A DNA stretch of 34,478 nucleotides, taken from NCBI GenBank assembly GCA_947585115.1, contig CANPWW010000021.1, forward strand, positions 1 to 34,478, given 5' to 3'. Source of the DNA: an uncultured Monoglobus sp. Lineage in GTDB: Bacteria; Bacillota; Clostridia; Monoglobales; Monoglobaceae. Under the pieces are notes generated by a model that worked only from the letters and a program-made list of their open reading frames with translations, made no database searches and had not been told where the DNA came from. Positions 3,486 to 15,347 of this stretch are shown here, one piece after another. The position numbers and the translations under genes are program-made. Positions within the stretch are counted from its first letter, which is position 1; the number at the start of each line of letters is the position of its first letter.

Positions 3486-3520
3486 AAAGCGGGCGGCAAT
3501 ATGCCGCCCGTTTCTGTTTG
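3486..3520 (+). terminator. Rho-independent terminator of isomerase gene
   Basis: CGGGCGGCA (3490-3498), a 3-nt loop and TGCCGCCCG (3502-3510), extended by AAg/tTT pairs, then TTTCTGTTT. The stem strongly resembles the arms of the inverted-repeat element at 22010-22112, so it may have been recruited from that repeat family. Confidence 0.8.
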
Positions 3521-3681: not shown

Positions 3682-5085
3682 TTATTTGAAATCTATGCTT
3701 TGGCGCTCGATCTCGCCCCAGTCGGTTTTCTTTTTGTGGTAGCCGATCAGCGACGTCATTCTCACCCACGCCAATATAAATCTCAGGCACGACACCTCGA
3801 TCGCGCACAGGCCTATCGCTTTTAATACATCGGTAAAGCTCAGGTGCTGGTCTATAGTGTGTATCCTGGCGAAAAACGCCGTCAGCGACAGTATTGACGA
3901 ATACGCCACGTATATGCCCAGATACAAAAGCATAAACGGCACGTTCAGAAAATCAAGCAGCATCGCGACAACCATTGTGACAACGCCGAATACCTCAATA
4001 TACGGCGACAAAAGCTCATATATCAAAAAGTACATATATGACACAAAGCTGACAAGTCCGTAGCGAGGGTTGCCCAGAATACTTCTGTGGGTCATCATGC
4101 TCTGGAACAGGCCTATATGCCACCTGCGCCTCTGCTTGCTCAAATCGCCGAGCTTTTCGGGGACCTGCGTCCAGCATATGGCGTCGGACGCGTATCTTAT
4201 CCGATAGGGCATCATATTTTCGCGGCAGAACACGTGGAGCTTTACCACCAGTTCCATATCCTCGCCCATGGTGTCGGCGTCGTAGCCCCCGGCGCTTATG
4301 ACCGTGCTCTTTTTGAACAGGCCGAACGCGCCCGAAATCATAATGCTTCCGTTGAATTTGTCGAACAATATTCTCGCCGCAAGAAACGAGCGGTCATACT
4401 CCAGCACCTGCATACAGGAAAGGATCTTGTTCGGCAGGCGGTATTTTATCACTCTGCCGTTTTTTATTTCCGCGCCGTTGCACGGCCGCACAGCTCCGCC
4501 CACGGCTATCACGTTGTCGTCCTCAAGCACGGGACGCACGATTTTTCTGAGCGAATCGAACTGAAGCACCGAGTCGGCGTCTATGCTGAGAAAATACGGG
4601 TATCTGCCCGCGTTTATGCCCACGTTGAGCGCGTCAGCCTTGCCGCCGTTCCGCTTTCGGATCAGCGTTATCGGAATATTGTCAACCTCTGTCTCGTAGA
4701 TCTCGGTTACGGGCCTTGTCATGATCTGCCGCTGTATCGGACGGTTGGTCTTTTTCATATCAAAGGCGTCAAGCACCACCTTGGCGGTATTGTCCTTCGA
4801 ACCGTCGTCGACCACGATTATCTCGTACAATCTGTAGTCCTGCATCAGCAGCGATCTGACCGTCGAGACAATGGTCTCCTCCTCGTTGTATGCGGGCACA
4901 ATTATCGTGACGGGCACGTAGTAATCGTTTAGTATCTCGTTTTTCAGCGTATTTCGGCGCTTTGTGCTGTAGAGCGACGTTGAGCCGACTATGACCGCCA
5001 GAAACAAAAAACTGGCGTATCCTATCATATAGAGAACAAAAAATATCCCCACAAAGTTGAAAAATACCTGCAATATATCTCTCAT
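3682..5085 (-). CDS. Processive family 2 glycosyltransferase (PgaC/NodC-like)
   Basis: This 467-residue membrane glycosyltransferase has an N-terminal membrane segment (about 8-33), a cytoplasmic GT-A domain (about 55-330) and three or four C-terminal membrane helices (about 345-445). All hallmarks of processive beta-glycan synthases are visible: VPAYNEEETI with downstream VVDDGS (nucleotide binding), the DxD motif in SIDADSVL, TMGED (catalytic base) and QRRRWHIG (QxxRW, acceptor binding). Relatives make poly-N-acetylglucosamine, hyaluronan, chitin oligomers or beta-glucans, so the sugar is not determined. It is the last gene of the six-gene operon. Its ATG overlaps the stop of the HEAT-like gene by one base (TAATG) and GGAGG lies about 10 nt upstream, so the two are translationally coupled. 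It is presumably the polymer-making enzyme of the cluster. Confidence 0.9.
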   Translation of the reverse strand: MRDILQVFFNFVGIFFVLYMIGYASFLFLAVIVGSTSLYSTKRRNTLKNEILNDYYVPVTIIVPAYNEEETIVSTVRSLLMQDYRLYEIIVVDDGSKDNTAKVVLDAFDMKKTNRPIQRQIMTRPVTEIYETEVDNIPITLIRKRNGGKADALNVGINAGRYPYFLSIDADSVLQFDSLRKIVRPVLEDDNVIAVGGAVRPCNGAEIKNGRVIKYRLPNKILSCMQVLEYDRSFLAARILFDKFNGSIMISGAFGLFKKSTVISAGGYDADTMGEDMELVVKLHVFCRENMMPYRIRYASDAICWTQVPEKLGDLSKQRRRWHIGLFQSMMTHRSILGNPRYGLVSFVSYMYFLIYELLSPYIEVFGVVTMVVAMLLDFLNVPFMLLYLGIYVAYSSILSLTAFFARIHTIDQHLSFTDVLKAIGLCAIEVSCLRFILAWVRMTSLIGYHKKKTDWGEIERQSIDFK

Positions 5086-6209
5086 TACACAGCCGCCTCC
5101 GCCAATACATTTTTGCTCTCTGCCTCTTCCTCTTCCGCGCCCAGGCGATAGGCCAGCATCTCTTTGGCGTATCTGTCGCCTCCGACCATATGCTCGATAT
5201 CGGAATACTCTATGCCCTTCGCCTCAAGGCTCACAGCCGCGTTGTAGCGGACGTGCCAGTTGGGGCTGAGCATCGCGTCGGTCAGGACCTTTATCACGTC
5301 GTCGCCGTCGTAGGACGCCAGCGCCGTGACGCCGATGGCCGCGTATTCCCAATGCACGGGGTCGGCGTCCGAGCCGAACTCCAGAAGCTTTTCCCTCGCG
5401 GGCTCGTACGGATATTTGGCGAAATACCGAACCGCCGCCAGCCTCATCTCCTTGCCCCGATTTTCATCAAGCATGATGTCAAGCATTCTCTGCCGGTACT
5501 CGCCGTTTTCGAATCGTATGTAGTTGAGGATCGCGACGCGGGTCTCCTCGCTGAAATCGTCGAATCGGCCCCAAAGCAGATTTATCAGCTCATGATGGTC
5601 GCCCTCGAACATAAGCAGTCCGTCCTGCAATATCTTATCGTGCAGAAAGGCTCCGTTCCGATCGCTGCGGCTCACGGCGTCAACAACCGCCCGGGCGCTG
5701 CCGAACGAGTACAGCGCGTGCATGGTGTTGACTCTGCAATACAAGCTGTCCTTTTCCATATACTCGATCAGGATCCTTTGCAGGTCCTCGGCCGGAACGT
5801 GGTCCTTGAGCTTTTTGCCGCCGATAAAATAGGCGAAATACGCCGCCTGCAGGTTCTCGCGCTTGCTGTAGGTATAGGCGAGATTGACAAATACAGGCGC
5901 AAGCTCGTTTAAATACTCACCCGCGGCGGCCTTTTCAACGCTGTCGAAATGCTTGTCAAGAGCCGCGTCAAACGCCATGAGGCCGCTTGTTTTGGAGAGC
6001 ACGCGGGTCATGTGTTTTATATGCTCGTCGGTCACCCGCGCGCCGCGCCTTATCTTGTTCAGCTCCGCCGATATTATTTTGTCATAGTGCGCGACGCGCT
6101 GCTGCATTCTCTTGTCGCTGCCGCGCATAACGATATTGTAAACTATGTTAAACGCTATCATGCTGAGGCAAACAAAGCCGTATATGTATAGCAGCGCCTC
6201 ACTGCCCAT
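5085..6209 (-). CDS. Membrane-anchored HEAT-like repeat protein
   Basis: This 374-residue protein has a single N-terminal membrane helix (about 6-26, ALLYIYGFVCLSMIAFNIVY), then a basic, coiled-coil-like stretch (30-70) and a long run of helical repeats. The part from about 160 to 350 fits HEAT/armadillo-type repeats: SLYCRVNTMHALYSFGSA, EMRLAAVRYFAKYP, PVHWEYAAIGVTALASY and NWHVRYNAAVSLEAKG each mark a repeat. Such proteins act as scaffolds and no catalytic motif is visible. The topology places the repeats in the cytoplasm if the short N-terminus is outside. It overlaps the upstream glycosidase-like gene by 11 bp and the downstream glycosyltransferase by 1 bp, so it is probably a partner of the glycosyltransferase, for instance in organising the synthase. 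GGAGG lies 9 nt before the ATG. Confidence 0.75.
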   Translation of the reverse strand: MGSEALLYIYGFVCLSMIAFNIVYNIVMRGSDKRMQQRVAHYDKIISAELNKIRRGARVTDEHIKHMTRVLSKTSGLMAFDAALDKHFDSVEKAAAGEYLNELAPVFVNLAYTYSKRENLQAAYFAYFIGGKKLKDHVPAEDLQRILIEYMEKDSLYCRVNTMHALYSFGSARAVVDAVSRSDRNGAFLHDKILQDGLLMFEGDHHELINLLWGRFDDFSEETRVAILNYIRFENGEYRQRMLDIMLDENRGKEMRLAAVRYFAKYPYEPAREKLLEFGSDADPVHWEYAAIGVTALASYDGDDVIKVLTDAMLSPNWHVRYNAAVSLEAKGIEYSDIEHMVGGDRYAKEMLAYRLGAEEEEAESKNVLAEAAV

Positions 6210-8496
6210 CAGCGTCCACCTCCGTTTTTTGTTTCTCCGCGGTTTCTTGCTCCGCGTTCCAAAAGTCTTTCAGCATATAATAGGACTTTTTAAATCTCTC
6301 GTGGGTCTTGACGGTTTTGTACCACGGGTCCAGCTCGACCTCGCCCATCGACACGGGCGAGCTTTTGTCGGCCGACGCGCCCGCGCTCATTTTGTCTATG
6401 CTCAGATTTTCGATTCCGTAATGCTCGTAGTAGTCGTCGTGTATCATCATCTCGGACGGATTGCTGAAATTCAGCAGCTGCCACGGTATGCGTATCTCAA
6501 CGGCGTTTTCGCCGAACGCGAAGTCGGCCAGAGAATCATAGCTGTCCGAATCGGGATTGGCGTTTCCGAGCCTCAGCCGTCCGGTATTCGACTTCTTGCC
6601 CGTGGGCTGAGTGTTTGCTCTGTCGCGGATATACTCCTGCATGCTTATCGGCAGGTATATGTCGACAAACTTCGAGCTGTCTCGGGCGGGCGGGTCAGAG
6701 TAGGGTATCTCGCCGTAATATGTGTCGCCGTAGATCGCCTTCAGGACCTCATATCTCTCGTTTACCACAACGCGGCTGTCGTCCGCCCCGTGTATGACCA
6801 TCAAAAAGTCTGACGGTTTTTCAAACGAGACGTCATAATCCTCGCAGTAAGAGCTGCCGCTTTTGGGCGTGGTGTCTATCGGGATATACAGGGTGTCCTC
6901 TCCGGGCCTTAAGCCGTCGCCTCGGGCGAGAAAATATATAAACTTCTCGTCATACTTGACATACAGCTCGGTACCGTTGTTGCTCGCGATCGGTTCATCG
7001 CCCTCCCACTCGGAAATATCTCCGTCCGCGTAGCAGACGCTTTTTTCCTTTCCCGGATCGAAGGTCAGAACGCCGAAAAACTGCTCGTTGGTCTGATAGT
7101 CGCTCCAGTAGGGAGTTTTGTCGAGATCGACCGCGTGCATCGTGTTCCAGTTCCTTTTGAACCACTCGTCCTGCCATGTGAAAAGGCAGCTGCCCGCGCA
7201 GCCCGCGTTCATAATGTCGCTGTAGCAGTCGATCAGACCCTGTCCCTGCTCCGCCTCGGACATATAGCCCTGAGTCCGACCGACGCTGTCGCCATCCTGA
7301 GACAGGCCGCGTCCCGTCGCCAGACCGTACTCGGCTATCACCACAGGCATCGTGTGATAAGAGGTGAGCGCCTTTAAGTACGCCAGATAGGTGTTATATC
7401 TGCCGTATGGATCGATGTAGCTCTCGTCGCTCACATAGTCCTCGATATGCGGACCCTTGAGCTTTGATGTGCGGTACTTGACGGTAGCCCAGCGTGTGCT
7501 GCCCAGACGCTCGTTGATCTCGGCGTCGCTGTATTGACTTGTGTCGCGCATAACGTTCAGATAATCCGGGAAATACGAATACACATGGTACGAGGCGAAC
7601 ATTCCCGAAATAAAATTCTCGGCGCTCGGCTTTATGTGCTCAACATCGACCGAGGCCACCTTTTGACGCGCGAATACAACGCTCGGCGGGTACACGAACG
7701 GGTCGGTGTTTGCCCAGTTGGCGAACGCCACCAGCCGCTGCTGCTTGTAGCGCTCCGACTCATACTCCACCGCTTTATCGCCAACTTCCGCGAGGAACGC
7801 CTCAAAGGGCGCCGCGTCTTCGGTGGTGCTGAAATATTTTCCGCTGTATTTTGCGCGGTCATCGTTTTTCTGATTGGTGTACGTGACCGTGTACTGCTCC
7901 CAGTCGACGCCCAAGATATACCCGATGACCCACGGGCTCACATCCTTGCGGAAGCTTCCGTTTCCCTTGTTTCCGTAGCTCAGCGCAAGGCTCTTTTTGC
8001 CGTGGATAACGTCGATCATGGTGCGGCAGTCGTCGGAAAATGTGGTCATGATGTCCTCGTCGAACGCGTCCATATGCGAGAACATATCGTAGTCGCTTAT
8101 CCAGACGCCCTGCAAAAGATACAGCGGCTTGTCGTTATACTTATTGTACTCGTAAAAAGCGTTGTAAAAATCATCATTGAGGATAGTGTACACGCGCACG
8201 GTGTTGGCGCCCATGTCCTGAATTTCCTTGAACCATCTCAGATAGGTTTTTTTGTCTATCGCGAAATCGCTGGGCCACTCTCCGGGTATGCCGGGCTCAA
8301 GGTCCACGCCGCGTATCTCAAAGGGCGCATACTCCCCGTCTTTTTGCATATAGATATTTTTCTCGTCAGTTTTCATGAAGGTCGAAACCGGCTGGTCGGG
8401 GTGAAGGTCTATGTATATTCCCAAGCGGTAATAGGCGGTGTTCCATATAAACGCCGCCACTATGAAAATACCGACGGCAATAAGATATTTTTTCAC
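6199..8496 (-). CDS. Membrane-anchored TIM-barrel glycosidase/transglycosylase-like protein with C-terminal sugar-binding-like domain
   Basis: The protein is 765 residues. An uncleaved-looking N-terminal membrane anchor (4-20) exports the rest. Residues about 40-480 look like a clan GH-A (beta/alpha)8 barrel: GVDLEPG, GANTVRVYTIL (97-107, reminiscent of GH72 transglycosylases), VIGYILGVDWEQ (190-201), SYHVYSYFPD (302-311) and VVIAEYGLATG (385-395), where E389 would be the nucleophile. Where the acid/base Asn-Glu is expected the sequence reads V197-D198, so activity may be altered or lost. Residues about 485-690 form a DOMON/CBM9-like beta domain (DGDISEWEGD; LYIPIDTTP). The start is GTG at 8496, with AAGGAGG 6 nt upstream. 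It sits between the CotH-like and HEAT-like genes. It may trim, transfer or shape the polymer at the cell surface. The exact GH family is uncertain. Confidence 0.7.
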   Translation of the reverse strand: MKKYLIAVGIFIVAAFIWNTAYYRLGIYIDLHPDQPVSTFMKTDEKNIYMQKDGEYAPFEIRGVDLEPGIPGEWPSDFAIDKKTYLRWFKEIQDMGANTVRVYTILNDDFYNAFYEYNKYNDKPLYLLQGVWISDYDMFSHMDAFDEDIMTTFSDDCRTMIDVIHGKKSLALSYGNKGNGSFRKDVSPWVIGYILGVDWEQYTVTYTNQKNDDRAKYSGKYFSTTEDAAPFEAFLAEVGDKAVEYESERYKQQRLVAFANWANTDPFVYPPSVVFARQKVASVDVEHIKPSAENFISGMFASYHVYSYFPDYLNVMRDTSQYSDAEINERLGSTRWATVKYRTSKLKGPHIEDYVSDESYIDPYGRYNTYLAYLKALTSYHTMPVVIAEYGLATGRGLSQDGDSVGRTQGYMSEAEQGQGLIDCYSDIMNAGCAGSCLFTWQDEWFKRNWNTMHAVDLDKTPYWSDYQTNEQFFGVLTFDPGKEKSVCYADGDISEWEGDEPIASNNGTELYVKYDEKFIYFLARGDGLRPGEDTLYIPIDTTPKSGSSYCEDYDVSFEKPSDFLMVIHGADDSRVVVNERYEVLKAIYGDTYYGEIPYSDPPARDSSKFVDIYLPISMQEYIRDRANTQPTGKKSNTGRLRLGNANPDSDSYDSLADFAFGENAVEIRIPWQLLNFSNPSEMMIHDDYYEHYGIENLSIDKMSAGASADKSSPVSMGEVELDPWYKTVKTHERFKKSYYMLKDFWNAEQETAEKQKTEVDADGQ

Positions 8497-8530
8497 GCGG
8501 TTCCTCCTTCCGCTCCTTAAAGCAAAATCA

Positions 8531-10027
8531 TTACGGGTTCCATCTCTTGGTGTTGGACGGGTGCCCGAAGAATCTCAACACGTCTATGTTCTCATCGAGC
8601 CACGCGCCTCTTTCGGTCAGCCAGCCCTTGAGAACGCCGACAGCCTGCTCGGGCGTGTACTGATTGCGGTTGACGACCTCCGCGCCGTCTGTTTCAAGGC
8701 TCAGCATGTCGGTGTCAAAGGCGTTTTTCCAGCGGTCATAATTTCTGCCTACCGCAGGGCCCAGCCAGGCGTTCGCCTCTTCTATATAGTTATTTATGTT
8801 TTGGTCGCTGAGATATGTTTTTCTGAGCTCCTTGTATCTTTCGATTACCCTTTCGCAGAACGCCTCATCCTTAAACAGCATGTTGTAATATCCGCTCTCT
8901 GCCACGAAGAATCCCGCCCGGCCGTATATATCGTTGGGAAAGTTGTTGCACGCGTTGTTAAAATCCCACACGCACATCTTGTACTTGTCGCCGGGCTCCT
9001 TGTAAAGATACGTCGAAAAGTTGCCCACGTCGGCGTTGCTCGTGAACTCGTTTATTATATAGTAATCAATAAAGTTGTCAACGTCGATCCAGTTTTGGTA
9101 ACCGTAGTTCTCGTTGTCGTAGTCATAAGAGTATATGGATTTCTCAAACTTCGAAAAATCCAGCTCTATCTCCTTCGCGAGGGACGGGGTCAGCTTGGTC
9201 TTTCCCGGATAGCGCACGGCCACGTCGCCTCCGGTGATCTGAAGCCGCTCGCTCAAAACGTTTATATCTCTGGTGGTCTCCAGGTCCGCCTCAACGGGAC
9301 GGTCGACGCGCAGCAGATAGCCCGTGAATGTCTCGCCCTTAACGATCGTTTTAAGCTGCAGTCTGCAGTTCTCGCCCTCGGATATGGTCTCGGTCATCAG
9401 ATAAACGCCTCTGTAGTCCCCGTTTAAAAACACCTCGCAGAAACGCACATTCGGCGCGTACTCCATGATGTCGCCCGACAGGTTGTACCACAGATAGTTC
9501 CTCAAAAGTGTCTTGTCGAGGTAGGGGCCGCTGAGCGCCCACTCGTGGTGGGGCGCCATGCCCATGACCGAGATCTCGCGGTCGGCGCCGCTCCCGTCGA
9601 TAAACTTCATCAGATACGGCGCTTTTTCGAACCTGCGCGACGAGTGGCCGCGGACCCTGAACAGCGATTCGGTGGTGAAGTCCGGCTCGTCGGTCAGATG
9701 ATTGTTTCCGTTTTCGTTGTCGATCACGGATATGTTAACTTTGGTATAATCGGTGCCGTCCTCCGCCTTGGTGTAGACGCTCTCGTCAAATATGTCAAAT
9801 TCTCCGCTCTCAACTCCGGGCACCGCCCTGCCCTCGGTGTCGATCAGCACAAGCGGCAGGTGGGAGCAGAAAACATCATCGCCGTGGGTCGAGCAGGGCG
9901 CGTATCCCGGTTCCTCGCGGTGCTGGTGATAGCGCCGGGCCGGATCGTCCTTGTCAACGTTAGCCGTGATACAGGCGGCCAATATAACGACCGCAGCCGC
10001 GGCGATCCCGATAATTTTATATTTCAT
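8531..10027 (-). CDS. CotH-like kinase-fold lipoprotein
   Basis: This 498-residue protein begins with a lipoprotein signal: MKYKIIGIAAAAVVILAAC gives a lipobox LAAC with Cys19, predicting anchoring to the outer face of the membrane. The rest matches the CotH family: FRVRGHSSRRFEKAPY (the conserved RGnSS...K region), LSGPYLDKTLLRNYLWYNL, FLNGDYRGVYLMTE, VDNFIDYYIINEF and the metal-binding-type CVWDFNNACN. Bacterial CotH is an atypical protein kinase first known from spore coats; related proteins also occur in secreted-enzyme and surface clusters. Here it lies in a glycan operon after DUF4956, so spore-coat function should not be assumed. AAAGGA lies about 11 nt before the ATG. A small GCCTT/AAGGC hairpin (10049-10066) lies in the 58-bp gap to the upstream gene. 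Confidence 0.88.
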   Translation of the reverse strand: MKYKIIGIAAAAVVILAACITANVDKDDPARRYHQHREEPGYAPCSTHGDDVFCSHLPLVLIDTEGRAVPGVESGEFDIFDESVYTKAEDGTDYTKVNISVIDNENGNNHLTDEPDFTTESLFRVRGHSSRRFEKAPYLMKFIDGSGADREISVMGMAPHHEWALSGPYLDKTLLRNYLWYNLSGDIMEYAPNVRFCEVFLNGDYRGVYLMTETISEGENCRLQLKTIVKGETFTGYLLRVDRPVEADLETTRDINVLSERLQITGGDVAVRYPGKTKLTPSLAKEIELDFSKFEKSIYSYDYDNENYGYQNWIDVDNFIDYYIINEFTSNADVGNFSTYLYKEPGDKYKMCVWDFNNACNNFPNDIYGRAGFFVAESGYYNMLFKDEAFCERVIERYKELRKTYLSDQNINNYIEEANAWLGPAVGRNYDRWKNAFDTDMLSLETDGAEVVNRNQYTPEQAVGVLKGWLTERGAWLDENIDVLRFFGHPSNTKRWNP

Positions 10028-10085
10028 ATTATGCCTTATCCTTTCACTGCCTTGAATTTATAAGGCGCACGCAGCAAACGCTTGC

Positions 10086-10763
10086 TTAGCTGCTGATCTC
10101 GTCGTTCTGCATAACGGTGTTGAAGTACTCAACGCCGCCGAGGGCGTATATCTCATCGCTGATGCTGCCGCCCGTTCTCTCGCCTTTTTCAAGATTCTTT
10201 TTGCTTATCTCGTAGATCAGTTCAACGGTGTCGTCGGTGGTGTTCCTTACTCTCAGATTGGCCTTGCGCATATAGCGCTTGAAGATCAGCGCGGCTATTT
10301 TTTCCTCATTGGTTCGCGCCGCTCTTATGATTATCAAAATGCGGTTGTCGTTCTTGATACGTCCGAAAACAAGCAGCAGAACAAAGGCGAACGCGCTGCC
10401 TATGCCCGCCACGAGATAGTCGCCCGCGCCGCAGCATATGCCCACAACGACCGTCCAGAATATGTAGACCGTGTCGCGGGAATCCTTGATCGCCGTTCTG
10501 AAACGAACGATGGACAGCGCGCCGACCATACCGAGCGACAGGGCTATGTTATTTCCTATTACTATCATGACCGTGGTGGTGACTATAGTCAGCGCCACAA
10601 GCGAGACGTTGAACTTCTTGCTGTATATGCTTCCGTCGTGGGATAATTTGTACGACAGAAATATGAAGCACGCGATGATCGACGCCGCCGCGAGGCGCAG
10701 CACGATCATTTGAGCGGTCAGTTCGCCGCCCGACTCAAGTGTCTGCAACAGATATTCTCTCAT
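10086..10763 (-). CDS. DUF4956 integral membrane protein
   Basis: This 225-residue protein has about four membrane helices in its first half (about 18-38, 53-73, 78-90 and 102-135) and a cytoplasmic-looking C-terminal domain (about 140-225). The signature GMVGALSIVRFRTAIKDSRD (about 78-97) is the strongly conserved loop of the DUF4956 family. The biochemical role is unknown. Across bacteria this family is often next to VTC-domain and CotH genes, as here (general knowledge of gene neighbourhoods). It is 18 bp downstream of the VTC gene and in the same operon. A role in moving or sensing a phosphorylated or polymeric substrate through the membrane would be conjecture. Confidence 0.88.
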   Translation of the reverse strand: MREYLLQTLESGGELTAQMIVLRLAAASIIACFIFLSYKLSHDGSIYSKKFNVSLVALTIVTTTVMIVIGNNIALSLGMVGALSIVRFRTAIKDSRDTVYIFWTVVVGICCGAGDYLVAGIGSAFAFVLLLVFGRIKNDNRILIIIRAARTNEEKIAALIFKRYMRKANLRVRNTTDDTVELIYEISKKNLEKGERTGGSISDEIYALGGVEYFNTVMQNDEISS

Positions 10764-10781
10764 AATGTTAGTCCTCCTGTA

Positions 10782-11468
10782 TTAATTCATTGTAGCGAGC
10801 CGCGCCAGACAATATTTGCTTACCGACATTTCCGAGCAGTTGACCGCGCTCACCGTGCTTTTTATATAGCCCAGCAGAAATCCGTTATACTTGACTTCAA
10901 GAACCGAGTTATAGGGGTCAAGAGCGGGATAGAGCGGCAGACGCTCCGAAAATATGTCAAGATCCGCCTCGCTGCCCGTGATCTCGGAGTCGATAGTGAC
11001 CCGAATTTTATTTTCTTTGGCGATATAGGCCCTGCGGGAATACTCCACAACGGCTTTCGGCCGATAGCACAGCCGATTCATAAGGCCGTAGCACTCGGCC
11101 GCGAACGGCTCTTTGTATTTGAGCAGCGGGTAGTAGCGCCCTCTTATAAGCTCCTCGGCGTCGGCCCTGGTTATCCTGAGCGAGCGCTTTTTCTGGTACG
11201 CCCCCTCCTTTTGTTTCATTTCAAGCATTCCGAAATCGGATTTCGGGTCGTATATCCTGAGCCGTATTTTTCTGCGCAGCTCCAAGCCGTCGACCTTGCC
11301 GTAGTAATCCAAGTCCGCGGGCGTGTCAAAATACAGCGAGCGTATTTTATAACCCCGCGGCCCGTTGTGAGGGTCAAGCATCATTATTTTTTCAAGCCGT
11401 CCCCGCAGCGCTGCCTCGGCGGACGCGTTAAGCAGGAACTTTTTTTCCTGCCTCAGTACCTCGTTCAA
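10782..11468 (-). CDS. VTC-domain (polyphosphate-polymerase-like tunnel fold) protein
   Basis: From a TTG start at 11468 the protein is 228 residues. It has the charged-tunnel motifs of the VTC/triphosphate tunnel metalloenzyme fold: LRQEKKF at the start, YKIRSLYFDT, LRRKIRLRIY, LEMKQKEGAYQKKRSLR, RPKAVVEYSRRAY, RVTIDSEI and SVLEVKYNGF. In yeast Vtc4 this domain makes polyphosphate from ATP; the bacterial single-domain forms have poorly known substrates. Start choice: the reading frame extends to an ATG at 11528, but that ATG lies inside the possible extended -10 TGTTATAAT and inside the folded leader. GGGAG sits 10 nt before the TTG, and family members usually begin just before the ExKF motif. 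It is the first gene of the six-gene operon. Confidence 0.85.
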   Translation of the reverse strand: MNEVLRQEKKFLLNASAEAALRGRLEKIMMLDPHNGPRGYKIRSLYFDTPADLDYYGKVDGLELRRKIRLRIYDPKSDFGMLEMKQKEGAYQKKRSLRITRADAEELIRGRYYPLLKYKEPFAAECYGLMNRLCYRPKAVVEYSRRAYIAKENKIRVTIDSEITGSEADLDIFSERLPLYPALDPYNSVLEVKYNGFLLGYIKSTVSAVNCSEMSVSKYCLARLATMN

Positions 11469-11487
11469 GTTCTGTTCACTCCCATAC

Positions 11488-11564
11488 AAAAACCCCGCAA
11501 AAAACAACACTCTCCGATGCCCGCGCATTATAACAATACGCGCGCTTTACGTGTTTAAGCGGGG
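11488..11564 (-). promoter_or_regulatory. Structured 5' leader with terminator-like end, upstream of the VTC gene
   Basis: In the leftward transcript, CCCCGC (11564-11559) can pair with GCGGGG (11498-11493), AACAC (11555-11551) with GTGTT (11510-11506), and an inner stem forms between CGCGC (11544-11540) and GCGCG (11526-11522). The closing GCGGGG is followed at once by UUUUU (11492-11488), then the GGGAG ribosome binding site. A closed multi-stem structure ending in a U run and placed before the start codon is what an attenuator or riboswitch looks like. I could not match it to a known riboswitch core. Confidence 0.45.
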
Positions 11565-11592
11565 ATGTATTAACTCTTTGCCTCAGTTATTC

Positions 11593-11621
11593 AGTATAAT
11601 GAGCCTATCTTGATTTGTCAA
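11593..11621 (-). promoter_or_regulatory. Promoter of the six-gene surface-polymer operon
   Basis: Leftward TTGACA (11621-11616), a 17-bp spacer and TATACT (11598-11593). Predicted transcription starts near 11586, giving a leader of about 118 nt before the TTG start. Confidence 0.75.
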
Positions 11622-11778: not shown

Positions 11779-14700
11779 TTATCTGACGTTTGTATACGGC
11801 TGAAGATTTCCGCCGCTCCAGAGATAGAACCTGACGTCGGTGTAGTCCTTGTCAAAGGCCATATCGCTGACTATATACTCGGAATCCGACATGGGTATCT
11901 CCGCTATCTTCGCGTCCGCCAGAACGCCGTTTTCGTAGGCCGCGGCTATAAACATGGCGCCGCCCTGCTCTCCGACGTTCTTTATCGACGCCCTGACAGT
12001 CCTGCCGTCCATGGTCGGTTCGCTCACATAGAACACCTTGTCGCTAGAGAATTCTTTTTCAAGCCTCATGTTGGCGAAGTATGTGGGATCGGCGGTCTTT
12101 ACCAGACGTATCGAGCGCAGGGTCGTGTCTCTGCCCTCGATGCTGCCGATGGTCGTCTCGCCTAAAATCGTGCCGTCCTTCTTTGAGGCGGTCATTGTGA
12201 TAAATCCGTCGGTTCCGACCTTTGAGTAATCAATCTTGGTGTCAAAGTGTACCCAGCCGCTGCCGCCTATCTGGTCGTACGTAACAAACGGATTGGCTCG
12301 GTCGTCAAGGGCGGGGCCCTTGTTGATCTGATTGTTCGCGTTGTTGATTATCTCGGCGAACACGTTATCGCCGTTCTGCCAGTTGCCCGACTTGTTCTCA
12401 AAATATACCCTGAAGCTTCGCGCCACGTCTTTGTCCACATACACGTCGAAGTCAAAGTCCACAACTCCGTCGCTGTAGGGCTCCGCGAGCTGGCGGTACA
12501 CGTTGAAGGTCTCGACATAGAGGGCGGGCTCGCCGTCCTTATAAACGACGCTGTTGGTGCTCAGCGCTCCGTTCTCGGTGGATGCGCCGTCCTGCCAGAT
12601 GTCGTACTGCGAGGCGATATACGGCTCGACCGTGGGAGCCGGAGTAGGCGTGGGCTCTGGCGTGGGCAAGCCCTCAAAGTTTGACTTATTATCAAGCTTT
12701 AAATCACTGAAGCTCGCCATCGAGTAGTACGCCTTGGGCGACGCGTCCGACTGACCCTGATGGGAGTCGATCGCGACGCCTACATACATCGTTTCGGGGA
12801 GACCCTTGATGTTCATGATATAGGGCTGTCTGATATTGTCGGTGTAACTCTCGCCGCCGTTTGAAACCGAGAACACCAGATTATCGCCGTCGCGCTGGAT
12901 CCTGAGATAGCTCGGCAGCTCGTGCGCCTCGCCGGGCAGCCAGTTGTAGCCCTTTTTATTGCCGTCGTTATACTCGCCCAAATTATTCGCGGACACAACG
13001 CCGCCGTTTTTGTCCTCAAAGAAAATACCTATTTTCTGATCACTTTTCATATCATCAGAATTTCCGTCTTTTAAATCATTATATTTTTGACTGTTATCAA
13101 CCGCCATCGCTCCGCCCTTGGTGGTCCTTGCGACGATCCTGGGATTTCTGCCGAGCTTTATCCAGCCGTCCACCAGAGACGCCGATACCGAGTTGGCGTC
13201 CAGAGTATTGCGGACCATAAGACCCATGACGGGGCCGTTCTCGTTGCCCATCATATCTTCCATCTTGATCGAGATATCGAAGTTGCCCGATACCTGCCTG
13301 TACATAAAGGCGCAGCTGTCGCTCTTTCCGCCTATTTTTCCGCTGCCGCCGATCGTGTAAATTCCGTTTTCGTCAACCGAGGCCGCGCCGTTTCCGTATC
13401 CGGGCGAGCCGATCTTTGCCATCTGCCACCCCTCGGGGGTGTCGGTTCCGTTCACGTATACGATCGAGGTGGTGCTGCGGGTGCTCTCGCCCTTATCGTT
13501 ATACGCCATGCAGGACAGATAATGCTCGCCGATATCGAGAGAGATAGTGTCGTCTATCGCCGATGCGCCGTCGTATGTCTTTATCATGTTCGGGCCGTCC
13601 CACAATTCCATTTTAGTGATCGCGGTGCCGCCCACGGGTGACGCCTGCGCCTTATAAGCCACGGTCTGCGTGTCGTCTATGACCGTCCACCTTCCGTTGT
13701 TGACGTTCGTGTCACCAACCTTGCCGCTCACCGAGGCGATCGCGGGCGATGTGACAACTATCTCGGGGTTGGTCGGCAGCGACGCGCTCTGCTCCTCGGT
13801 CCAGTCGTTAACATAGGCCTCTATCCATGTGTAGCCCGCGTTTTCGCCCTCTTGTATAATATCCTCGTCCTTCGCGGTTCCCATGTTATTCGCGGTTTTC
13901 CAGTCCGCGGGGATCTCAAAGGTTTTTTCAACTTTTTCAAATCCGCTGATGCCGCCGACCTCGTCGGAGTTGTTTATTATCCTGCCTGTTCTGTTTTTCG
14001 CGTCGATTATTCTGGCGTCGGTCGCGTCGCGCTTGGGCAGCGTGGCTCCGATACCGGGAAGTATCGCGTCCTTGACCTCGGCGCCCGGGATAACCTCGCT
14101 GACGTTCAGGTCGGGATAAAGCTCATCGCCCAGCGAGAACGGCTCGCTCATTCTTTCAACCTGATCCGCCGCGTTATTTACGGCTTTGCCCAGCCAGTTA
14201 TCGGCGGTCACGTCGGAATATCCGTCAACATAGTTGTTCTCCATATAGAATTGGCTCTTGTATGTAACGCCGTCAACGGTTTTAGCAAGCTTGTCAAGAT
14301 CATAAATCCTCGGCTTTCTGTCCTCGCGGGTGCTGGGGCCGAAGCTGTAATAATTGTTGGCGTAGTTGATCTTTGAGGGGTTGAGCACCTGGTTATGGGG
14401 CGAGGTCGGCTCGCCGCCGTAGGCCGAGTTGGTAACGCCCCAGTTGTATACCATGTTGTTTTGAATATCGGTCTTTTGCAGCGCGCGGTCAAGTCTGGGC
14501 GAGCGGCTGTCGTGGTGGGCGAACAGATTCCGGTAATAGGTCGCGTTGGTGCCGCCTAAGATTCCGCCGTAGCCGTGAGCGCCCTTGAAATGGCCCGAAA
14601 GCCTCATGCTCTCGGCCGCTATCGTGTCCTGCACCGTGAGGCGCTGACCCTGCTTATAGGTGGCGTTCTCGGCATTGCCCGCGTAGAGCGTCAGGCCCTC

Positions 14701-15306
14701 GTCCACAAACCAGCTCGTTGAGCAGTGGTCTATGATAACGTCCTGGTTCCACTGACCGCCGATTCCGTCATACTCGCCGCCGTTCTTGTTGGTGGGACGC
14801 ACGCGCATATAGCGGATCATAACGTTTTTTCTGCCGTTGCCTATCCTGAGATCTCCGCCGGTCAGAGTAACGCCGTCTCCGGGCGCTGTCTGGCCAAGCA
14901 GAGTGATGTTGTTTCGATTGATATAGAGCGTGTCGGGCACCTCGATAATGCCGCCCACGTCAAACACAACGATCCTGCCGACAGTTTCTGAATCGTCGCC
15001 GGTCGTCACGCCGTCGCCCACCGCGTCGGCAAGCGTACCGGGGCCGTCAGCGTCAAGTTTCGTCACGTGGTACACCTCGACGGTACCGCCGTTGTCCAAA
15101 GCGGATCTCGCGCCCTTGGTGTATTTTCCTCCGCCCTCGGCGCCCGGGAAAGCGGGCAGCGGGTTCGGCACCGCGGTAGGATCGGGCTCCTGCGAAGGCG
15201 CCGCGCTTTCCGCGGGGTTTTCGTCGCCCTCGGCGAAAACCGGGCATGCCGAAAATACGGAAAACGCCACGCATAATACCAGAATGTAAGACAATAATTT
15301 TTTCAT
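11779..15306 (-). CDS. Secreted multidomain pectate lyase (PL1-like)
   Basis: This is a very large exported enzyme (1175 residues from the ATG at 15306), which cleaves polygalacturonate/pectin by beta-elimination. In order it has a signal peptide (MKKLLSYILVLCVAFSVFSA, cut after VFA), a Pro-rich linker, and a PL1 beta-helix from PAFPGAEGGGKYTKGARSA to about residue 450, with VIIDHCSTSW, DGIGGQWNQD and HHDSRSPRLDR (catalytic Arg region). Then come an Ig/Fn3-like segment (about 490-620), a concanavalin-like/DUF1349-like segment (about 625-855), a PTPEPTPTPAPT linker, a possible sugar-binding domain (about 880-1065) and a C-terminal beta domain ending YLWSGGNLQPYTNVR, resembling C-terminal modules of other clostridial secreted proteins. 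The second ATG is preferred over the one at 15324: GGAG lies 8 nt before it and it begins the typical signal peptide. No sortase motif, SLH domain or dockerin was seen. Confidence 0.88.
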   Translation of the reverse strand: MKKLLSYILVLCVAFSVFSACPVFAEGDENPAESAAPSQEPDPTAVPNPLPAFPGAEGGGKYTKGARSALDNGGTVEVYHVTKLDADGPGTLADAVGDGVTTGDDSETVGRIVVFDVGGIIEVPDTLYINRNNITLLGQTAPGDGVTLTGGDLRIGNGRKNVMIRYMRVRPTNKNGGEYDGIGGQWNQDVIIDHCSTSWFVDEGLTLYAGNAENATYKQGQRLTVQDTIAAESMRLSGHFKGAHGYGGILGGTNATYYRNLFAHHDSRSPRLDRALQKTDIQNNMVYNWGVTNSAYGGEPTSPHNQVLNPSKINYANNYYSFGPSTREDRKPRIYDLDKLAKTVDGVTYKSQFYMENNYVDGYSDVTADNWLGKAVNNAADQVERMSEPFSLGDELYPDLNVSEVIPGAEVKDAILPGIGATLPKRDATDARIIDAKNRTGRIINNSDEVGGISGFEKVEKTFEIPADWKTANNMGTAKDEDIIQEGENAGYTWIEAYVNDWTEEQSASLPTNPEIVVTSPAIASVSGKVGDTNVNNGRWTVIDDTQTVAYKAQASPVGGTAITKMELWDGPNMIKTYDGASAIDDTISLDIGEHYLSCMAYNDKGESTRSTTSIVYVNGTDTPEGWQMAKIGSPGYGNGAASVDENGIYTIGGSGKIGGKSDSCAFMYRQVSGNFDISIKMEDMMGNENGPVMGLMVRNTLDANSVSASLVDGWIKLGRNPRIVARTTKGGAMAVDNSQKYNDLKDGNSDDMKSDQKIGIFFEDKNGGVVSANNLGEYNDGNKKGYNWLPGEAHELPSYLRIQRDGDNLVFSVSNGGESYTDNIRQPYIMNIKGLPETMYVGVAIDSHQGQSDASPKAYYSMASFSDLKLDNKSNFEGLPTPEPTPTPAPTVEPYIASQYDIWQDGASTENGALSTNSVVYKDGEPALYVETFNVYRQLAEPYSDGVVDFDFDVYVDKDVARSFRVYFENKSGNWQNGDNVFAEIINNANNQINKGPALDDRANPFVTYDQIGGSGWVHFDTKIDYSKVGTDGFITMTASKKDGTILGETTIGSIEGRDTTLRSIRLVKTADPTYFANMRLEKEFSSDKVFYVSEPTMDGRTVRASIKNVGEQGGAMFIAAAYENGVLADAKIAEIPMSDSEYIVSDMAFDKDYTDVRFYLWSGGNLQPYTNVR

Positions 15307-15347
15307 GATCCTCGCTCCAATCATTGATTTTTTGTTCTTTAATACAA

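Follow-up and report, generated by a model that had tools for sequence, protein, structure and literature searches.

A six-gene operon of the NELoc-2 type in an uncultured Monoglobus sp.: a candidate synthase-dependent exopolysaccharide system with a polyphosphate/kinase module

The 34,478-nucleotide contig CANPWW010000021.1 of an uncultured Monoglobus sp., a gut-type bacterium (Clostridia; assembly GCA_947585115.1, 90% complete), called the window below, carries six open reading frames (ORFs) on its minus strand, at 3682-11468 when the first gene is read from a TTG start. In order, they encode a VTC-domain protein, a DUF4956 membrane protein, a CotH kinase-like protein, a TIM-barrel glycosidase-like protein (GH), a HEAT-repeat protein and a family 2 glycosyltransferase (GT2). 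With moderate confidence, the operon is taken here to be a synthase-dependent exopolysaccharide system of the type called NELoc-2 in Clostridium perfringens, equipped with a polyphosphate/kinase module. Gene identity and order, a fusion of HEAT with GT2, the pairing of VTC with DUF4956, predicted topology, an EAL-domain neighbour and discordant gene trees were computed; we infer the nature of the polymer and of the phosphate donor, the direction in which polyphosphate moves and the CotH target. Gram-positive exopolysaccharide systems are still being discovered singly, and this one, in full or as its core, extends to Bacilli and Deinococcus. In a poultry pathogen, a locus associated with disease has the same gene order (NELoc-2, PMC2879425).

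Conservation of the gene order

The original prediction, made from the window sequence, described six leftward genes with short gaps or overlaps, and this arrangement is real. By the starts in the ORF list, neighbouring genes overlap by at most 11 bases or stand at most 58 apart; Pfam identifies five of the proteins, and the AlphaFold2 model of the sixth shows a glycosidase-type barrel. To follow the arrangement in other organisms, the GH protein was searched for in 391 genomes sampled from the class of the window, and was matched in 27 of them, the window genome included. Twenty-nine regions were examined, namely the window and 28 others, two of which were added from a search among relatives. 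The order VTC-DUF4956-CotH-GH-HEAT-GT2 is complete in 14 of these, with CotH as two ORFs in L050 and GT2 as two ORFs in L051. Five regions are incomplete by contig ends, one, in a congener, is shortened (L037), and two, one on a contig of 3 kb, contain no gene of the set but GH; the other seven are considered with the proposed mechanism.

A second set of named loci comprises the best 80 of at least 547 relatives, chosen by similarity to the window GH. Here, the full order stands on one strand in 67 loci, a conservation of order and strand far beyond chance. Contig ends truncate ten of the 13 others. L126 contains every one of the six genes, with an artefact from overlapping ORFs, and L090 and L112 lack part of the set despite sufficient flank. 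Median gaps between consecutive genes are 17, 26, 23, 17 and -4. By their record titles, many of these loci are from Clostridia and one is from Paenibacillus agaridevorans, while the two nearest relatives are uncultured Monoglobus with a GH identity of 95-96%. In addition, a plasmid of Planococcus maritimus carries all six genes, individually annotated, in the same order. The genes thus behave as one operon-like unit whose two proposed halves, VTC-DUF4956-CotH and GH-HEAT-GT2, are jointly conserved, so that the idea that they never travel together fails.

The operon might also be a degenerate or inactive remnant in the lineage of the window. GH is found in only 4 of 12 members of the genus, the window genome included, which itself has no EAL gene, and one congener (G009) carries the shortened operon (L037, 6498-9958), with a CotH of 230 aa, a GH of 361 aa and a GT2 of 276 aa; neither DUF4956 nor HEAT was detected in that locus. 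Nevertheless, none of the six window ORFs is truncated, the motifs that were checked are retained, and the whole GH is 95-96% identical in two congeners, which makes a remnant very improbable.

The synthase genes and their EAL neighbour

The window GT2 has four hydrophobic segments, as expected of a processive GT2 with membrane helices, and among 67 homologues the motifs DDGS, DADS and GEDME are found in all 67 and Q[RK]RRW in 57. The charge pattern of the HEAT protein is that of an N-out/C-in protein in 57 of the 64 homologues that have an N-terminal segment. In locus L060, HEAT and GT2 are fused in one protein of 1010 aa, which argues for a stoichiometric complex and supports the proposal that the two proteins form a single synthase.

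Genes downstream of GT2 point to a possible regulator in many relatives. When the 68 loci with more than 2.5 kb after GT2 are counted (8 of 76 GT2 loci were left out for having less), a same-strand EAL gene starts within 1.5 kb of GT2 in 53. EAL matches occur in 18 of 47 first chained downstream genes and in 18 of 38 second ones; the protein is often a GGDEF-EAL protein, and in L094, GT2, SBP_bac_3, GGDEF and EAL follow each other in a single ORF. An EAL gene after GT2 is absent in the two nearest relatives (L063, L064) and in L065 and L067-L069. The downstream scan drew on 59 second and third genes, covering all 38 second ones and some of the third. A polysaccharide deacetylase is the second downstream gene in 3 of the 38 loci, and an amino-sugar polymer is therefore possible. 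Two further neighbours were seen: clustering places a small protein of about 170 aa immediately behind GT2 in 25 of 80 loci (for instance, L104, 9539-10048), and 12 of 47 first downstream genes give a weak DivIVA match.

The barrel enzyme

The GH protein has no match in Pfam or in a PDB sequence search. Its AlphaFold2 model (predicted local distance difference test, pLDDT, 84.5; predicted TM-score, pTM, 0.87) shows a glycosidase-type barrel that folds like GH157 (9g4n: Z 30.0, root-mean-square deviation 2.8, 313 residues aligned, 16% identity); GH2 enzymes reach Z 25-26. In Foldseek, 167 matches were obtained at E 0.001 or better, of which 50 were inspected, and the TM-score over the full length is low, at about 0.3. 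Like these fold matches, GH5 enzymes have a barrel. Among 54 GH sequences, W199-E200 is invariant and E389 is at least 90% conserved; in a broader alignment (n=20), the E200 position holds E, D or N. The protein is predicted to be extracellular by topology, so the fold and the topology together support the outward-facing barrel enzyme that had been proposed, and on the same two grounds it may act on a glycan.

The VTC-DUF4956 pair and CotH

In the 391 genomes, VTC is found in 199 and DUF4956 in 196; both occur in 192, VTC alone in 7 and DUF4956 alone in 4. The two are a near-obligate pair. CotH occurs in 147 genomes, 138 of which have both VTC and DUF4956, with weak CotH matches kept in; as the genomes are related, such co-occurrence counts overstate independence. 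Nine CotH genomes lack the full pair, and in 4 of these the matches are fragmentary or weak. Across 14 control genomes, VTC and DUF4956 give an identical set of three matches, and Bacillus subtilis has a CotH match and neither a VTC nor a DUF4956 match. The pairing was also followed outside the operon in 81 VTC regions, that is, 80 hand-picked ones and the second copy of the window genome. The 80 were taken best first from about 150 best listed matches and are not a random sample: six-gene loci were passed over, as were most members of one genus and certain others. DUF4956 is adjacent on the same strand in 80 of the 81, and in the remaining region (L178) a DUF4956 match is listed just after the VTC gene.

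A profile of 13 VTC homologues aligns to yeast Vtc4 (E 0.0021), although the single sequence has no match in a PDB sequence search. Seven residues that we take to be the basic tunnel residues of Vtc4 all fall on K or R in the window VTC alignment, and the residues at these positions are invariant in 13 of 13 sequences. The alignment does not cover Vtc4 K458, a residue named in PMC4641920. As in the yeast VTC complex, the window protein thus matches the tunnel-domain profile; unlike Vtc4, it matches the VTC domain only, and its partner is DUF4956. The DUF4956 model has a pLDDT of 75.4 and a pTM of 0.54. Its C-terminal domain resembles MgtC C-terminal domains (Z 9.3) and elongation-factor domains (9.6), many other domains of the same arrangement score as well as MgtC, and the Pfam MgtC score (22.1, cut-off 31.4) falls short of membership. 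The protein has no Foldseek match at E 0.001, its PDB sequence match is at chance level, and the membrane part is barely covered.

The window CotH aligns with the CotH structure 5jd9. Its residues N331, D333, W354 and D355 are invariant in 14 of 14 sequences, and, in 67 relatives, N.D.G is present in 59 and WD[FLYW][ND] in 64. The D228Q variant of B. subtilis CotH is inactive (PMC7821199), and this catalytic Asp appears to be retained in the window protein, the numbering being our own transfer. A single N-terminal hydrophobic segment is present, and in 63 of 67 relatives no excess of positive charge follows this segment, so that the kinase domain is predicted to lie outside the cell. The window CotH carries a lipobox-like LAAC and had been described as a lipoprotein. 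A lipobox-like motif is found in only 6 of the 67 relatives, and CotH as a conserved lipoprotein was accordingly rejected.

These neighbourhoods bear on the explanation that VTC-DUF4956-CotH is a generic surface module merely stored in the operon and acting on unrelated surface proteins. Only 25 of the 81 outside VTC-DUF4956 loci have a CotH gene no more than 4 kb away, and one scanned CotH bears a dockerin. Ten clusters of neighbouring proteins were sampled by one scanned representative each: the largest (52 regions) contains CotH proteins and others, with a Cthe_2159 carbohydrate-binding protein as its representative, and those of other clusters are a response regulator and a histidine kinase. 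All of this fits a module of wider use. By contrast, the identical order in 67 of 80 loci, in Clostridia and Bacilli and with short gaps, is hard to reconcile with mere storage, and this explanation is unlikely. The second pair of the window genome (L143, contig C6, 7101-10593) is followed by a Cthe_2159/Cu_amine_oxidN1 protein instead of CotH. PelG adjoins CotH-VTC-DUF4956 in L217 (G103) and CotH in G181:C3; PelG matches were found in 7 of 75 genomes searched, 5 of them above the cut-off.

Gene trees

Tree comparisons used 67 operons, all selected because their GH resembles that of the window. When pairwise distances are summed for VTC+DUF4956+CotH and for GH+HEAT+GT2, the two sums are correlated (rho 0.87; the highest of 1000 permutations was 0.32). 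The proposed halves are not the units that the trees support. The trees of VTC+DUF4956 and HEAT+GT2, which stand on either side of CotH-GH in the operon, have 36 of 64 splits in common, whereas the CotH+GH tree shares 19 and 23 with them. Similarly, the VTC+DUF4956 alignment loses 135 log units under the HEAT+GT2 tree and 1277 under the CotH+GH tree, while for the HEAT+GT2 alignment the costs are 496 with the VTC+DUF4956 tree and 2413 with the CotH+GH tree. These tests used 1000 replicates, which the program reports as too few for the approximately unbiased (AU) test; the CotH/GH test used 10000. The CotH and GH trees differ from each other as well. CotH comprises two types, which need 5 changes on the tree of the inner genes (VTC, DUF4956, HEAT and GT2; shuffles, mean 19.8), whereas on the CotH+GH tree a single change suffices. 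GH falls into two groups that need 1 change on either tree, with no sign of movement of GH types. A chunk scan of GH is mixed, ranging from -28 to +266 log units; its trees were built from the same genes, only the left/right cross-tests are independent, and the last GT2 chunk was left out.

These results suggest that VTC, DUF4956, HEAT and GT2 were inherited together and that CotH above all, and parts of GH, had another history, with exchange between operons as its probable cause. The grouping of VTC+DUF4956+CotH against GH+HEAT+GT2 was consequently abandoned as an evolutionary division. The mosaic itself is weakened, since it rests on trees of GH-selected loci and since the inner/outer split in the correlations of the 67 loci is not seen in a 13-locus set, from which L051 (GT2 in two ORFs) was excluded and in which L050 is represented by the higher-scoring CotH piece only.

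Relation to known systems

The closest likeness in print is NELoc-2 of C. perfringens (CP4_0460-CP4_0468), tabulated in 2010 (Lepp et al., PMC2879425, Table 4) in a chicken pathogen, with which the window was compared by names, order and lengths. As in the window, the table gives VTC, a 'tubulin/FtsZ' protein of 222-226 aa, CotH (497 aa), a hypothetical protein (685 aa), HEAT (377 aa) and a 'chitin synthase' (466 aa); by position and length, the 'tubulin/FtsZ' protein would be DUF4956. Unlike in the window, NELoc-2 has two copies of VTC and its partner, with a resolvase between them, and a sigma-factor gene is the first entry of the table. Most NELoc-2 proteins are given there as membrane or cell-wall proteins, and the chitin-synthase label is discussed. 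In a 2024 survey, NELoc-2 was reported in 23 of 41 strains, with an anti-sigma factor as a further gene and a polysaccharide deacetylase in 18 of the 23 (PMC11677781), and by RNA-seq the first NELoc-2 VTC and its partner are reported as lower in vivo (PMC4983038).

Another likeness is found next to Gram-positive Pel operons, where CotH, a polyphosphate polymerase and DUF4956 are described as adjoining genes (Whitfield et al. 2020, PMC7112168). The same accessory trio thus stands beside synthase-dependent exopolysaccharide genes in both cases. In bifidobacteria, the Pel operons are described with a diguanylate cyclase/phosphodiesterase (DGC/PDE) gene, and the Pel synthase is encoded by pelDEADAFG (PMC7112168), as against the GT2-HEAT-GH core of the window, among whose six proteins no Pel gene was matched. 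The original label of a poorly described system therefore stands for function, as no functional study of the six-gene set was found in open-licence papers; it does not for existence, with NELoc-2 (PMC2879425) and the Pel-linked trio (PMC7112168) reported.

The clostridial cellulose synthase operon ccsZABHI is similar in that a GT2, a membrane partner and a GH5 hydrolase form a Gram-positive operon (Scott et al. 2020, PMC7710045). Unlike in ccsZABHI, the window GT2 has no PilZ match, and none of the six genes is an MBOAT or DHHW gene. The best NCBIfam match of the window GT2 is PgaC/IcaA, at 150.8 bits against a cut-off of 422.3; its CelA score is 32.8 against 699.1 for this cellulose synthase family (BcsA/CelA), and PgaB/IcaB have no match among the six proteins. 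The operon is thus not a textbook cellulose or poly-N-acetylglucosamine (PNAG) operon, as had been proposed, and with no Pel match among the six proteins a Pel operon was rejected as well. New in the present analysis are the HEAT-GT2 fusion, the EAL neighbour, the VTC-DUF4956 pairing, the inner/outer trees and the GH157-like fold.

Proposed mechanism

In the favoured reading, GT2 and its cytosolic HEAT partner would polymerise a beta-linked glycan and extrude it across the membrane, and the anchored barrel enzyme would trim or re-link the chain outside. Fold, topology and the fusion suggest these steps. VTC and DUF4956, as a unit of general use, would turn ATP into polyphosphate and probably pass it to the cell exterior. 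There, the anchored CotH kinase could draw on phosphate for modification of the glycan or of a surface protein; co-occurrence and topology are the grounds for these two steps. In most relatives, the EAL protein encoded after GT2 may set the activity through cyclic di-GMP (c-di-GMP); its gene would have been lost from the window lineage or never present there.

A more specific version can be offered only tentatively, at rather low confidence. Here, VTC-DUF4956 would be a bacterial polyphosphate synthase and exporter, polyphosphate would be the donor with which extracellular CotH decorates the glycan or a partner, and the CotH type would be exchanged between operons in the manner of a specificity gene, with the inner machine left unchanged. 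ATP is scarce outside the cell, and B. subtilis CotH acts on the spore coat. A polyphosphate donor would explain that CotH is mostly found with VTC-DUF4956 (138 of 147 genomes), whereas B. subtilis has CotH without the pair. The operon thereby offers a testable answer to the phosphate source of secreted kinases and suggests a function for the pair that 192 of the 391 genomes share.

Alternatively, CotH might phosphorylate the synthase or another surface protein as a regulator, with VTC-DUF4956 as an energy or phosphate sensor and no polyphosphate export. A pure sensor role does not predict that CotH keeps company with the pair in nearly all CotH genomes, and CotH is predicted to lie outside, where ATP is scarce. 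Nevertheless, DUF4956 has a C-terminal ferredoxin/ACT-like domain, by their trees VTC and DUF4956 belong with HEAT and GT2 rather than with CotH, and regulation of Pel synthesis through CotH phosphorylation has been suggested by Whitfield et al. (PMC7112168). This alternative is doubtful, if a serious possibility.

Several observations weigh against the exopolysaccharide system with a phosphate module. GH, HEAT and GT2 occur with no detected VTC, DUF4956 or CotH in seven of the 29 regions (one being L060, with HEAT and GT2 fused), and a plasmid of Deinococcus radiophilus has the barrel, HEAT and GT2 only; the GH-HEAT-GT2 core can accordingly do without the phosphate module. The three-gene core looks like the broader unit, and VTC-DUF4956-CotH like an addition in Bacillota. 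The CotH tree differs from that of VTC-DUF4956, CotH is near fewer than a third of the other VTC genes, as given above, and in five genomes CotH is clearly matched although the full pair is not present. A tripolyphosphatase is reported to carry an acidic patch in place of basic residues of Vtc4 (PMC4641920); at this patch the window VTC has R26 but E28, which is nearly invariant, lies two residues before the K200 equivalent and, by our count, matches the acidic-patch Glu of AtTTM3 (PMC4641920). Polymerase rather than phosphatase activity of VTC is therefore likely but not certain. Finally, the window genome has three GGDEF matches and no EAL or PilZ match, so that c-di-GMP control cannot be claimed for the window operon.

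Some loci that lack VTC, DUF4956 and CotH have other neighbours. HD_5 proteins are found in L056 and L058, a receiver-domain protein lies between GH and HEAT in L057 (scanned) and L059 (by position and size only), and an ODP-GGDEF-receiver protein neighbours the operon in L060.

Features of the window

Table 1. Genes of the operon and candidate flanking signals in the window
Feature	Position	Strand	Basis
VTC-domain protein, polyphosphate-polymerase-like, about 228 aa from TTG 11468	10782..11468	-	Pfam VTC, 133.8 bits (cut-off 23)
DUF4956 membrane protein: helices, C-terminal ferredoxin/ACT-like domain	10086..10763	-	Pfam DUF4956, 49.3 bits (cut-off 30.6)
CotH kinase-like protein, membrane-anchored, predicted extracellular	8531..10027	-	Pfam CotH, 196.6 bits (cut-off 23.8)
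TIM-barrel glycosidase-like protein (GH), membrane-anchored, plus beta-sandwich, 765 aa	6199..8496	-	AlphaFold2 model
HEAT-repeat protein, single N-terminal membrane segment, body predicted cytosolic	5085..6209	-	HEAT_2, 34.3 bits (cut-off 27.7)
GT2 synthase, membrane segments at N- and C-terminus	3682..5085	-	Glycos_transf_2, 95.3 bits (cut-off 23.3)
Promoter-like TTGACA-N17-TATACT upstream of VTC	11593..11621	-	11/12 matches; consensus match only
Terminator-like stem after GT2	3490..3510	-	9 pairs, 8 G-C, then T-rich tail; consensus match only

The true start of VTC is probably TTG 11468 rather than the ATG at 11528 of the ORF list, because most aligned relatives begin at about this point and GGGAG lies just upstream. 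The promoter-like site ahead of VTC ranks second of 10 in the region, a number not above chance (shuffles: mean 7.2, standard deviation 3.0). The structured leader that had been proposed behind it folds no better than chance (z -1.32; 17 of 200 shuffles equal or better), and Rfam at gathering thresholds has no match anywhere in the window; a riboswitch or structured leader was rejected on both grounds. A perfect sigma-70-like site (12/12, TTGACA-N16-TATAAT) lies within CotH at 9054-9081 on the minus strand. It could allow separate expression of the last three genes, or conserved protein sequence at this position may explain the match. Just upstream of the operon, at 11779-15324 on the same strand, lies a gene for a secreted-looking protein of 1181 aa. 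With no match in Pfam at E 1 or in NCBIfam at E 0.1, its sequence reads like that of a pectate lyase.

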